A DNA stretch of 64,000 nt, taken from assembly GCF_900102425.1 (NCBI RefSeq), contig NZ_FNBT01000002.1:248001-312000 (forward strand), given 5' to 3'. The notes below the pieces were generated by a model. That model made no database searches. It was not told the origin of the DNA and saw only the letters and a list, made by a program, of their open reading frames with translations. Source of the stretch: Blastococcus aurantiacus. GTDB lineage: Bacteria > Actinomycetota > Actinomycetes > Mycobacteriales > Geodermatophilaceae. Shown here piece by piece: positions 34,166 through 58,456 of this stretch. Within the stretch, counting starts at the first letter, position 1. The number at the start of each line of letters is the position of its first letter. The translations under genes were made by a program, and so were the position numbers.

Positions 34166-34221
34166 GGCCACCCTTCAGGGGCCCACGGCGAGCTTGCGAG
34201 GCGTGGGGGGAAGGGTGGTCC
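34166..34221. repeat. 56-bp hairpin repeat, copy A
   Basis: Arms GGCCACCCTTC (34166-34176) and GAAGGGTGGTCC (34210-34221) pair over 9 bp perfectly, with an inner CCCACG/CGTGGG and core GCGAGCTTGCGAG (34188-34200). It lies between glgC and glgA and ends 9 bp before the glgA -10 box. Confidence 0.8.
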
Positions 34222-34242
34222 TTCAACCCTTACGGTGATCGG

Positions 34243-35430
34243 GTGCGCATCGGCATCGTGACCCGTGAGTGGCCGCCGGACGTCTACGGCGGTGCCGGCG
34301 TCCACGTCGAGCACCTCGTGGCCGCGCTCCGGGGACTCCCTGCCGGGACCGCCGGCGGAGAGCTCGACGTCGACGTCCACTGCTTCGGCAGCCCGCGGGA
34401 CGACGCCACCGCGCACGCCGTCCCCGAGGGGCTGCGCGAGGCCAACGGCGCACTGCAGGCCCTCGGCGTCGACGTGCAGATCGCCGCGGCACTGGGCGAC
34501 GCCGACCTGGTGCACAGCCACACCTGGTACGCCAACACCGCAGGCCTGCTGGCCGCCCTGGTGCACGGCGCCCCGCACGTGATCACGGCGCACTCGCTGG
34601 AGCCCCGCCGCCCGTGGAAGGCCGAGCAGCTCGGCGGCGGCTACCGGCTCTCGTCGTGGGCCGAGCGCACCGCCTACCTGGCGGCCGACGCGGTGATCGC
34701 GGTGAGCCACGGCATGCGCACCGACGTCCTGGACGCCTACCCCGAGCTCGACCCGGCCCGCGTGCACGTCGTCGGCAACGGCGTGGACGCCGAGGCCTAC
34801 CGCCCGGTCGAGGCACCGGACACCGTGCGCGCCCTCGGCGTGGACCCCGACCGCCCCTACGCCCTGTTCGTCGGGCGCATCACGCGGCAGAAGGGGCTGG
34901 TCCACCTGCTGGCCGCGGCCGAGCAGCTCCCGGCCGACGTGGGGCTGGTGCTGTGCGCCGGCGCCGCCGACACCCCGGCCGAGCACCAGCAGGTCGCCGA
35001 CGCCGTCGCCGCGCTCCAGGCGCGGCGCGAGGGCGTGGTCTGGATCGAGGCGATGCTCCCGCGCGAGCAGTTGGTCCCCCTGATCACCGGGGCCACCGTC
35101 TTCGTCGTCCCCTCGGTCTACGAGCCGCTGGGCATCGTGAACCTGGAGGCCGCGGCCTGCGGCACCGCCGTCGTCGCCAGTGCCGTGGGCGGCATCCCGG
35201 AGGTGGTCGACGACGGCCGCACCGGGCTGCTGGTGCCCTACGACCCGGAGGACCCCGACGGGTTCGCCGCCGGCCTCGCGGCCCGGATGACCGAGCTGCT
35301 GCGTGATCCGGACCGGGCGGCGCGGATGGGCGCGGCCGGCCGCGAGCGGGTGCTCGCCGAGTTCGGCTGGCCGGCGATCGCCCGGCAGACCGTCGACGTC
35401 TACACCGCCGTCCTGTCGGGGCGGGCGTAG
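34243..35430 (+). CDS. glgA: glycogen synthase (GT4/GlgA-Corynebacterium type)
   Basis: 395 aa, GT-B glycosyltransferase: REWPPDVYGGAGVHVEHL at the N-terminus, GRITRQKG, and FVVPSVYEPLGIVNLEAAACG carrying the donor-site Glu motif. Uses ADP-glucose (or makes maltose-1-phosphate in related GlgM enzymes; the two cannot be separated here). GTG 34243 has TACGGT (34231-34236) 6 nt upstream, so the mRNA is leaderless. It pairs with glgC. Confidence 0.92.
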   Translation: MRIGIVTREWPPDVYGGAGVHVEHLVAALRGLPAGTAGGELDVDVHCFGSPRDDATAHAVPEGLREANGALQALGVDVQIAAALGDADLVHSHTWYANTAGLLAALVHGAPHVITAHSLEPRRPWKAEQLGGGYRLSSWAERTAYLAADAVIAVSHGMRTDVLDAYPELDPARVHVVGNGVDAEAYRPVEAPDTVRALGVDPDRPYALFVGRITRQKGLVHLLAAAEQLPADVGLVLCAGAADTPAEHQQVADAVAALQARREGVVWIEAMLPREQLVPLITGATVFVVPSVYEPLGIVNLEAAACGTAVVASAVGGIPEVVDDGRTGLLVPYDPEDPDGFAAGLAARMTELLRDPDRAARMGAAGRERVLAEFGWPAIARQTVDVYTAVLSGRA

Positions 35431-35439
35431 CGGCCCCGC

Positions 35440-35575
35440 TGGTACCGTTCGGTCGCCGGCCCGTGCGCCGGTGGCGCAGCAGCAGCGAAGTCCGGTGCGA
35501 ACCCGGCGCTGTCCCGCAACTGTGAGGCCCCCGCTCCTGGAGCAGAGGGTGCCGAGCCAGATCGCCTGCTCTGCG
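35440..35575 (+). ncRNA. cobalamin riboswitch
   Basis: Strong class-I cobalamin aptamer features: GAAGTCCGGTGCGAACCCGG, then GCTGTCCCGCAACTGTGA, and the B12 box GCCGAGCCAGATCGCCTGC (35551-35569). It lies 90 bp upstream of the B12/Fe-type ABC transporter genes and should repress them when adenosylcobalamin is abundant. Outer boundaries are approximate. Confidence 0.93.
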
Positions 35576-35644
35576 CCATGCAACCGACCCTCGCGGCTGG
35601 GGTCGCGCATCGGGCGTCGGGTCAGCTCGGAGCCGACCCTCGCC

Positions 35645-35659
35645 GCCTCCGCTGGAGGC
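35645..35659 (+). promoter_or_regulatory. Shine-Dalgarno sequestering hairpin
   Basis: GCCTCC-GCT-GGAGGC forms a perfect 6-bp hairpin that hides the GGAGG of the btuF-like gene. It suggests that the riboswitch acts on translation initiation. Confidence 0.6.
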
Positions 35660-56033: not shown

Positions 56034-56394
56034 GGGGGTGCTCCTCGTCGTCGTCCGCGGGTGGTGTCAGCCCGCTCTTCAGGTGGTCGGGAGGCGTCGG
56101 ATGCAGCCGTCTGGTCAGCGCGGCGATCTCGGCGTCTCGCTCGTCGAGCGTCCGGGCGAACTGGTCGAGCAGCCAGTCCACCTCGGTCATCCGGTAGCCC
56201 CGCAGGGTCACCGTCATCCTCAGCGCCCGCACGTCGTCACCCGTCACCGGCCGGGCGCTCGGCAGCTCCACCGGTGAGCGGTCGAGGTCGGCCGGGGGCT
56301 GGGTCTCGCCGCGCCCCAGCAGCAGCGAGGCGCCGAGGAAGAGCAGGGCGGCGACGACCAGGACACCGACGAGGAAGAGGAGCAGGTCGAACAC
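56026..56394 (-). CDS. DivIVA-domain membrane protein
   Basis: 122 aa. N-terminal membrane helix (about 3-26), then a DivIVA-type helix RALRMTVTLRGYRMTEVDWLLDQFA. Matches in length and position the 122-aa Rv1209. May mark poles or septa. GTG 56394, 1 bp after the LOG gene stop. Confidence 0.87.
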   Translation of the reverse strand: MFDLLLFLVGVLVVAALLFLGASLLLGRGETQPPADLDRSPVELPSARPVTGDDVRALRMTVTLRGYRMTEVDWLLDQFARTLDERDAEIAALTRRLHPTPPDHLKSGLTPPADDDEEHPHA

Positions 56395-56395
56395 G

Positions 56396-57268
56396 TCAGG
56401 CGTCGGAGGGGCCGACCGGGGCCTGCATGCTGCCGTCGTCCCCGCGTGCCCGGCCGGCGTCGGAGGCCTGGATCGCGGCGACCACCTCGGCGACGTCGTC
56501 GGTGACGGTGAGCAGCTCCAGGTCGGCGGGGCTGATCGTGCCGGTGGCCGCCATGGTCGTGCGGATCCAGTCGAGGAGCCCCGACCAGTACTCGGTGCCG
56601 AACAGGATGACGGGGAACCGGGTGACCTTGCGGGTCTGCACCAGGGTCAGCGCCTCGAACAGCTCGTCGAGGGTGCCGAAGCCGCCGGGGAGGATCACGA
56701 AGGCCTGCGCGTACTTCACGAACATCGTCTTGCGGACGAAGAAGTAGCGGAAGGTGATGCCGAGATCGACCCACTCGTTGAGCTCCTGCTCGAACGGCAG
56801 CTCGATGCCGAGCCCGACCGAGAGCCCCCCGGCCTCGCAGGCCCCCCGGTTGGCCGCCTCCATCGCGCCCGGGCCACCGCCCGTGACGACCGCGTACCCG
56901 GCCTGCGCCAGCGCCGCGCCGATGGCCACCCCTGCCGCGTAGTGCGGGTGGTCGGCCGGCGTGCGCGCACTGCCGAACACGCTGACCGCGCGCGGCAGCT
57001 CCGCGAGCAGCCCGAAGCCCTCGACGAACTCGCTCTGGATGCGCAGCACGCGCCACGGGTCCGTGTGCAGCCAGTCGGTCTGGCCACGGCGGTCGAGCAG
57101 CCGCTGGTCCGTCGTCGTCCCGGCCGTCCTCGGGTCCGGCTCGCTGCCGCGCAGCATGACCGGGCCGCGGTGCCGGGCCGGCCGCCTCGGCCGCGCGCCC
57201 GGCTCGGTCGCCGGCCTGCCGGGGTCCTGCGGGCCGGGTGCGTCCTGCGGGCTGGGCGGGACGGTCAT
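56396..57268 (-). CDS. LOG family (TIGR00730) protein
   Basis: 290 aa, Rossmann-like: [16 protein letters not shown] and the [12 protein letters not shown] catalytic motif of cytokinin-activating LOG and nucleotide 5'-monophosphate phosphoribohydrolases. The first 60 residues are Pro-rich. ATG 57268 overlaps the dapE stop. Confidence 0.93.
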
Positions 57269-58371
57269 GCGGGGCTCCCGGACAGGTAGGCGACCAGCGC
57301 GTCCTCGGCCGGCTGCAGCCGGTCGATCAGGACGTGCTCCTCGCGGGTGTGGGCGAGCGTCGGGTCGCCGGGCCCGTAGTTCAGGGCAGGGATGCCGAAG
57401 GCGGCGAAGCGGGCGACGTCGGTCCAGCCCAGCTTGGCCCTCGGCGGCCGGCCGACGGCGGCGACGAACGCGGCCGCGGCCGGCTCCGAGAGCCCCGGCA
57501 GGGCGCCGCCGGAGTGGTCGACGATCTCCAGCGTCGCGCCGGCCTCGACGGCGTGCGCGAACACCTCGCGGACGTGCGCCTCGGCGGCGTCCTCGTCCCG
57601 GTCGGGTGCGTAGCGAAAGTTGACCAGCAGGGCGGCCTCGTCCGGGATCACGTTGCCCGCAACCCCGCCCGAGATGCCGACGGCGTTGAGCCCCTCGCGG
57701 TAGGTGCAGCCGTCGATCTCGACCTCGCGGGCCTCGTAGGCGGCCAGCGTGGCCAGCGGCCCGGCCAGCCCGTGGATCGCGTTGCGCCCGAGCCAGCTCC
57801 GTGCGCTGTGCGCGCGGTGCCCCGGCGTCGTCAGCCGTGCCCGCAGCGTGCCCTGGCAGCCGCCCTCGATCTCGCCGGCGGTGGGCTCCAGCAGGATCGC
57901 GAGGTCCCCGTACAGCCAGCCCCGGCGCTCGCGGGCGACCCGGCCGAGGCCGTTCTTGACCGCCTCGACCTCTTCGTTGTCGTAGAAGACGAACGTCAGG
58001 TCGTGCGCGGGTTCGGCGCCCGGGACGCCGAAGAGCCCGGCGAGCCGCAGCATCACCGCGTCACCGGACTTCATGTCGCTGGTGCCGCAGCCGTACAGCC
58101 GGTCGCCCTCGATGCGGCTGGGGACGTTGTCGGCGATCGGCACGGTGTCCAGGTGGCCGGCCAGCACCACGCGCGTCGGGCGGCCGAGATTGGTGCGCGC
58201 CAGGACGGCGTCGCCCACCCGCTCCACCTCCAGGCCGCCGAGGGCGCGCAGCGCCGTCTCGACGAGGTCGGCCAGCGGCTTCTCGTCCCCGGAGACCGAC
58301 GGGACGTCGACCAGCGCACGGGTCAGCGTGAGGACGTCGGCGGAGAGGTCGAGCGGAGGGAGGTCACTCAC
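57265..58371 (-). CDS. dapE: succinyl-diaminopimelate desuccinylase
   Basis: 368 aa, M20 metallopeptidase fold: AGHLDTVP (His, Asp ligands), [19 protein letters not shown], and the dimer domain. Removes succinate from N-succinyl-DAP in lysine and peptidoglycan synthesis. GTG 58371 has TAGGCT (58379-58384, reverse) 7 nt upstream. Divergent to dapD. Confidence 0.94.
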
Positions 58372-58402
58372 GACGCCGAGCCTAGGGCCAGGCTCCACCG
58401 TC

Positions 58403-58456
58403 GGCCCCGCCCGGAGGCCCGTGCCGAGCGTGCGAGGCATGAGAGGGGCGGGGTCC
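58403..58456. repeat. 54-bp hairpin repeat, copy C
   Basis: Arms GGCCCCGCCC (58403-58412) and GGGCGGGGTCC (58446-58456) pair over 8 bp; core CCGAGCGTGCGAG (58424-58436). Lies between dapE and dapD, and ends 8 bp before the dapD -10 box. Confidence 0.78.

Follow-up and report, generated by a model that had tools for sequence, protein, structure and literature searches.

A 64,000-nucleotide stretch of the Blastococcus aurantiacus genome (assembly GCF_900102425.1, contig NZ_FNBT01000002.1, positions 248,001 to 312,000; hereafter the window) carries three copies of an intergenic hairpin of 54-56 nt, which share their outer ends and their core and differ in their arms. We analysed this hairpin family in the window, in the whole genome and in related bacteria, and we interpret its members as non-autonomous mobile palindromes, similar to repetitive extragenic palindromic (REP) elements, that are probably recognised as a folded single strand (rough probability 0.6). 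Our G and L numbers denote genomes and loci, with G000 being the window's own Blastococcus genome and G001 its sister species. The three copies and the genes around them are as follows, in window positions.

21068..21928, minus strand: EamA-type transporter gene (PF00892), on the other flank of copy 1; start assigned by eye
21988..22043, plus strand: hairpin copy 1, 56 nt; followed after 4 nt by the TCA stop codon (22048-22050) of the PhzF-family gene (22048-22986, minus strand)
22048..22986, minus strand: gene for a PhzF-family protein (TIGR00654, PF02567), whose stop codon abuts copy 1
32895..34115, minus strand: glgC (TIGR02091), divergent neighbour of copy 2
34166..34221, plus strand: hairpin copy 2, 56 nt; intergenic, between the divergent glgC and glgA
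34231..34236, plus strand: putative -10-like TACGGT, 9 nt beyond copy 2
34243..35430, plus strand: glgA (TIGR02149, scan from 34246), downstream of copy 2; GTG start at 34243 assigned by eye
57265..58374, minus strand: dapE (TIGR01900), divergent neighbour of copy 3; start assigned by eye
58403..58456, plus strand: hairpin copy 3, 54-nt subtype; intergenic, between the divergent dapE and dapD
58465..58470, plus strand: putative -10-like TAGCGT, 8 nt beyond copy 3
58478..59452, plus strand: dapD (TIGR03535), downstream of copy 3

All three hairpins listed in an initial annotation are present with their GGCC...GGTCC ends, and the exact core CGAGCNTGCGAG occurs three times in the window, each time within one of them. 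The arms are CCCTCGTGC/GCAGGAGGG in the 21988 copy (with one G-G mismatch), CCACCCTTC/GAAGGGTGG in the 34166 copy and CCCCGCCC/GGGGCGGG in the 58403 copy; the annotation gave these sequences in an order other than that of the coordinates. It was also right to place two copies 8-9 bp before a -10 box (TACGGT at 34231, TAGCGT at 58465). The two genes that flank the 21988 copy are co-directional, and this copy abuts a stop codon. A covariance model trained on 21 copies, including those at 34166 and 21988 and excluding that at 58403, scores the three window copies at E = 1.5e-15, 7.8e-15 and 7.2e-9, with the next best match at 0.67, and a scan of the window against Rfam at gathering scores matched no family. 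When the window copies are folded singly as plus-strand RNA, z is -1.59, -3.74 and -2.90; with DNA parameters, z in coordinate order is 0.03, -3.62 and -0.85, and the shuffles are beaten by the 34166 copy only. Folds of single copies are less striking, and the case rests on the hairpin family.

Structure of the element and covariation of its arms

Read on the core-bearing strand, the element has the layout C-GGCC-(arm)-AGGGN-(inner arm)-CGAGC-N-TGCGAG-(inner arm)-GG-(arm)-GGTCC-TTCNNC, and the commonest lengths among 194 distinct hairpins are 54 nt (82) and 56 nt (75). In the 65 copies from the window's genome a C usually precedes GGCC, and some have a longer left part ending in TGGAAC. The outer helix has 10-11 bp and the inner helix 8 bp, the asymmetric internal loop is also conserved, and one column of the inner helix is G·T in 125 of the 194 hairpins. 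The initial annotation let the unit end in GGTCC; these ends are right, but the conserved unit extends beyond them into TTCNNC. Its constant core is exact in copies picked by pattern, where it looks invariant because the core was used to pick them, but among covariance-model matches that were not selected by core the loop is mostly GAGC-N(1-3)-GCGA, and the model for this relaxed set was itself still built from exact-core copies. The closing pair has changed to U-A in 5 of 113 distinct rows, and the loop may consist of tandem G·A pairs over a G-C pair and a short loop. At L017 (G000:C12:142897-142966) the core is expanded by repeats of the 8-nt unit GCGAGCGT, a sign of loop slippage.

To quantify pairing, we counted cells in which both partners of a pair had changed. 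In 21 copies of 56 nt, 98.0% of the cells are paired and 49 are double-change cells; shuffles give 13.6 such cells, and sliding the partners gives 7 at most. For 114 matches to the covariance model, drawn from five segments of Blastococcus genomes and from 69 loci, named or other, in an alignment that leans towards the model to which it was fitted, the corresponding values are 96.8% paired and 290 double-change cells, against 85.6 shuffled and at most 26 with slid partners. The arms thus covary well beyond shuffles, which supports the selected fold that the initial annotation had suggested. Covarying helices on one strand, a trait of structured RNA families, are present.

The mismatches indicate which strand folds. 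Among the 194 distinct hairpins, G·T or T·G occurs in 94 cells and A·C or C·A in 34 (p = 1e-7, counted without the ninth outer position and the mostly-G·T column), and at G-C pairs the ratio is 47 G·T-type to 2 A·C-type cells. Since a two-strand structure should treat G·T and A·C alike, this asymmetry points to the core-bearing strand as the one that folds. RNA folding of a random 120 of the 194 hairpins gave a mean z of -3.08 for the core strand vs -2.06 for the other strand. The functional fold is thus more likely to be that of the core strand, whether as single-stranded DNA (ssDNA) or as RNA.

Distribution

The initial annotation had staked its proposal on further copies, and the window's genome holds 65 distinct full copies (reversed control pattern, 0). 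We dropped overlapping pattern matches that differ just by an upstream GGCC, one partial match (L057) and a palindrome matched on both strands (L255). The strict pattern matches 21 of 23 Blastococcus genomes, with 0 to 83 matches each; G010 has two covariance-model matches and 0 strict matches, and G021 has one strict match and one match to the reversed control. Beyond Blastococcus, the one genome of the sister genus matches (1/1) and those of other families do not (0/16). Across the order, 72 of 75 genomes of the Geodermatophilaceae, a family of desert and stone bacteria, match the strict pattern, the highest with 241 matches (counted by eye), and the other families have one strict match each in 4 of 322 genomes, vs 6 of 322 for the reversed control. 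Outside the Geodermatophilaceae, strict matches in the order are no more frequent than the reversed control. The scan of this family with a covariance model, which the annotation had proposed as a check, finds matches in 101 of 112 genomes, which represent 9 of the 12 genera; the hits counted in any one genome were limited to about 50. The element accounts for dozens to more than 200 intergenic hairpin matches per genome.

Among the 80 named loci listed, of at least 119, the sources are Geodermatophilus, Blastococcus, Modestobacter and one Geodermatophilaceae bacterium, with two exceptions. One is a Frankiales-labelled metagenome-assembled genome (MAG) that also matches the covariance model; the other, a Thermoplasmata MAG (L275), lacks a model match and was taken as chance. 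Two viral contigs (L348, L349) match the element pattern.

Placement at stop codons and -10-like boxes

We assessed placement in 201 copies with usable flanks (65/65 from G000, 41/41 from G001 and 95/100 from other loci, five of the 100 other-genus copies being left out for too short a flank), with genes called by our own codon-usage script, which missed at least one short gene beside L016. Only four of the 201 copies were called inside a gene, so that the family, like REPs, consists of many short palindromic intergenic copies. In 165 of 201 copies it is the 3' end of the right-hand gene that faces the element, and in 135 of these 165 the stop codon of that gene lies 0-6 nt from GGTCC (exactly 4 nt in 82). 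On the left side such stop placement is found in 24 of 85 genes, vs 135 of 165 on the right (p = 1e-16). Where the right-hand gene is transcribed away from the element, the first base of a TANNNT is no more than 9 nt off in 17 of 35 cases, vs 2 of 140 control windows; ten of the 17 lie exactly 6 nt after GGTCC, and one (L002) shares bases with the end of the element itself and could be spurious. CTGA is enriched at the 4-nt sites (72/82 vs 693/1042), and we propose that a short C(T)A target would link the stop codons with the -10 boxes.

Orientation is strongly biased. Co-directional sites are oriented 99 to 20, with the folding strand opposite to the mRNA in 99 of 119. In the sense of the abutting gene, GGCC-G and no T-run comes after the hairpin (by eye); in the other sense TTCTTC comes after it.

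Copy turnover and nested copies

Copy number is patchy even between sister genomes, with sister relations taken from a glgC tree. Strict matches number 0 and 0 in G010/G022, 71 and 44 in G000/G001, and 10 and 79 in G008/G020. When the 65 elements of G000 are compared with the 41 of G001, four positions coincide under the strict pattern, with different arms in all of them; a fifth coinciding site (L018) has a degenerate G001 copy that this pattern missed. The covariance model, applied at 20 of the 65 G000 sites, gives no convincing match in G022 (0/19 regions) or G010 (0/19) and strong matches in 4 of 19 recovered regions of G001. Weak model matches in empty regions (L139 with E 0.0099, L153, L171) were read as chance or ordinary palindromes.

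A clean empty site is seen in a syntenic region, where G000, G010 and G022 lack an element of G013 and all of them share one stop codon (the comparison could not anchor G001 and G019). The base preceding the stop looks inherited there, and relatives without the element have the stop codon in the same place at 19 of the 20 sites compared (by eye; the exception is L040). For these two reasons we rejected the view that part of every such stop codon comes from the element. In G001, GGAAC is fused to GGTCCTC where G000 has the 21988 copy, and this resembles the footprint of a hairpin deletion.

Copies also accumulate at single sites. Nineteen of 113 model matches lie within 100 nt of another; at L005 one element is nested within another, and at L243, L276 and L305 a full copy directly follows one that lacks its right end. 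By our own reading, the region upstream of glgA in 23 congeners holds a full exact-core hairpin in 4, a full variant-core hairpin in 3, a degenerate one in 4, at most a remnant in 4 and none in 8, and 5'-half repeats precede the full hairpin in five congeners. The simplest reading of the nested copies and half-arrays is repeated insertion at one spot with trimming of the left side. In the left flanks of 206 copies, we read long matches as orthologous flanks and short ones as half-arrays. Upstream of glgA in G018, G002, G012 and G006 (L077, L080, L085, L089), a longer GC-rich intergenic insert with CGGCTCGACC-type repeats stands beside the hairpin (by eye).

Interpretation and rival explanations

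The fold, the covariation, the strand asymmetry, the patchy copy number, the empty sites, the nested and tandem copies and the precise right end are observed features of the family, and they are best explained by REP-like elements that would be mobilised in trans. The inserted unit is likely to be about 59 nt (C-GGCC...GGTCC-TT[C]), with a long form of about 75 nt. The fold of the one strand comprises an outer helix (10-11 bp) with free but compensating letters, an asymmetric internal loop of the AGGGN/GG type, an inner helix of 8 bp commonly with a G·T pair, and the GAGC-N(1-3)-GCGA loop. A trans-acting enzyme would recognise this folded single strand, most likely ssDNA, by its shape, loops and ends, and the letters of the arms could drift freely provided that pairing persists. 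Insertion would then place the right end precisely, close to a short sequence of the C(T)A type, and in a genome of 75% GC the tolerated sites of this type would mainly be stop codons read in reverse complement, together with -10 boxes. Trimming would often shorten the left flank, and repeated hits at one spot would leave arrays of 5' halves. More tentatively, and at odds below even, we consider a mobile hairpin that persists as a shape and not as a sequence, its folded ssDNA or RNA being recognised through loops and ends and inserted at gene boundaries, after stop codons or before -10 boxes, by a new class of enzyme that would be neither Y1 nor, in most carriers tested, RVT_1. The arms would then diversify, since nothing but their pairing would count.

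Several observations weigh against REP-like mobility. The Y1_Tnp domain (PF01797) was found in 0 of 23 Blastococcus congeners and not in the window's own genome, with 5 of 14 control genomes positive, and RVT_1 was found in 4 of 23 Blastococcus genomes, not including the window's own (single genes in G014, G021, G005 and G011; L175-L178). No mobilising enzyme was found, and none flanked by element ends in the fetched stretches, in searches limited to Y1_Tnp and RVT_1; nor did an all-against-all comparison confined to the left flanks of the 206 copies reveal a long shared left part that would mark a longer parental element. Empty and filled sites show no target-site duplication by eye, in flanks whose identity of about 90% or less blurs the ends, and movement itself was not observed. 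At C-G pairs the G·T-type and A·C-type cells are closer in number (47 vs 32), and only one of the three window copies folds better than its shuffles under DNA energy parameters. The stop codon of L040 is not located as in its empty relatives. Finally, the stops at element-abutting sites (103 TGA, 18 TAG and 14 TAA, vs 447, 72 and 16 in other genes) are near background, with TAA commoner, which fits a rule of gene boundaries as well as a sequence target and weakens a pure stop-codon sequence target.

The initial annotation had left open whether the hairpin is an RNA 5' or 3' element, a protein-binding cruciform or a mobile palindrome. A cis-acting RNA element, such as a terminator or mRNA stabiliser at gene 3' ends that is selected in place while its arms drift under compensatory selection, would account for the strong covariation, for the position directly after stop codons in 135 of 165 cases and for the other palindromes seen by eye at the same spots in relatives without a strict match. 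We nevertheless find it unlikely, since few sites are common even to sister species, the mRNA bears the weaker-folding strand in 99 of 119 co-directional sites, the abutting gene's sense has no T-run after the hairpin (by eye), and the common ends and core at 65 loci require a common origin or binder. The 99:20 orientation and the turnover of sites thus argue against a primary role in mRNA, and side effects on transcripts are possible. About as improbable is an RNA-mediated mobile element, in which a reverse transcriptase would use the plus-strand RNA as template and insert the copy with a precise right and a ragged left end. It would suit the variable and trimmed left ends, the 5'-half arrays and the RNA-type G·U pairs on one strand, but no plus-strand transcript is known, and with RVT_1 in just 4 of 23 Blastococcus genomes, the window's own not among them, this route has no obvious partner in most carriers.

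A double-stranded protein-binding site or cruciform with a chromosomal role is very improbable. In its favour, core and ends are fixed in all strict copies, which were selected by pattern; the G·T/A·C asymmetry (94 vs 34; 47 vs 2 at G-C pairs), the turnover of sites and the existence of two congeners without a strict match and of others with one or two speak against it. We give slightly less credit still to an ordinary GTAG-type REP moved by a REP-associated tyrosine transposase (RAYT): short intergenic palindromes, mostly downstream of genes, are what PMC3733652 describes for REPs, but the absence of Y1_Tnp from 23 of 23 Blastococcus genomes (5 of 14 control genomes being positive) indicates that this is not a standard REP/RAYT element, the hairpin is larger, and the consensus lacks a GTAG end. 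Of the three proposals, it is the mobile palindrome, in its general form, that fared well, through patchy copy number, empty sites, nested copies and half-arrays; the defining marks of GTAG/RAYT REPs that were tested are missing.

Relation to known repeats

Integron attC sites, in which one folded strand with variable arms is recognised by its shape, offer a working likeness to the hairpin family; their ends and loop differ, and no gene cassettes were seen. Miniature inverted-repeat transposable elements (MITEs) are defined by terminal inverted repeats and a target-site duplication. To our knowledge, few families provide such strong evidence for a selected structure, and not a sequence, in moving copies. 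The Blastococcus copies turn over between sister species, show compensation in many of their arms and mark, to within a few nucleotides, both stop codons and -10 boxes.

MITEs such as those that PMC3733652 lists are likewise short, non-coding and intergenic, with inverted ends and spread in trans, but the whole of the present element is one hairpin, with no target duplication seen by eye and no parental transposon found. The nearest described elements are GTAG and CGTC REPs. GTAG REPs are described there as short imperfect palindromes of 20-40 bp, in many copies, intergenic and mostly downstream of genes, which are associated with RAYT transposases and thought to be miniature mobile elements acting in trans (PMC3733652). 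The Blastococcus hairpin shares the many short intergenic palindromes downstream of genes; unlike GTAG REPs, it measures 54-56 nt, has variable covarying arms and a precise spacing to stop codons, and lacks a Y1 transposase and a GTAG end, neither this tetranucleotide nor its variant GGAG being found in the 65-copy end consensus C-GGCC...GGTCC-TTC. CGTC REPs, also palindromic and without a dedicated transposase, have stems of 8-9 bp and loops of 4-5 nt and come from other phyla (PMC3733652), in contrast to the helices of 10-11 and 8 bp found here, where CGTC is confined to the complement of the optional left extension (GTGACG), at a distance from the base of the hairpin. We found nothing on the family in the main text of a 2025 survey (PMC12306157), and no such repeat is named in passages of PMC9686282 and PMC3035280, two papers on these bacteria, or in passages of PMC1590033. 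The titles and abstract openings listed in searches of the open full-text literature, a scope outside which most subscription journals and all preprints fall, do not describe it either. With this family, the spread of REP-like repeats that have no dedicated transposase becomes directly testable in harmless bacteria of soil and stone.

Other palindromes at the same sites

Two genomes without a strict match, G022 and G010, carry other palindromes near the same stop codons (L131, L140, L150, L155), of the form GCGTCCTCCCTCACCG...CGGTGAGGGAGGACGC with GATCAGGTCACCTGATC (by eye). Pairs of a third, GGACTTTCTGCACCGAAAGTCC-like palindrome are seen by eye in G022 (L124) and G010 (L143) at the site orthologous to element L062.

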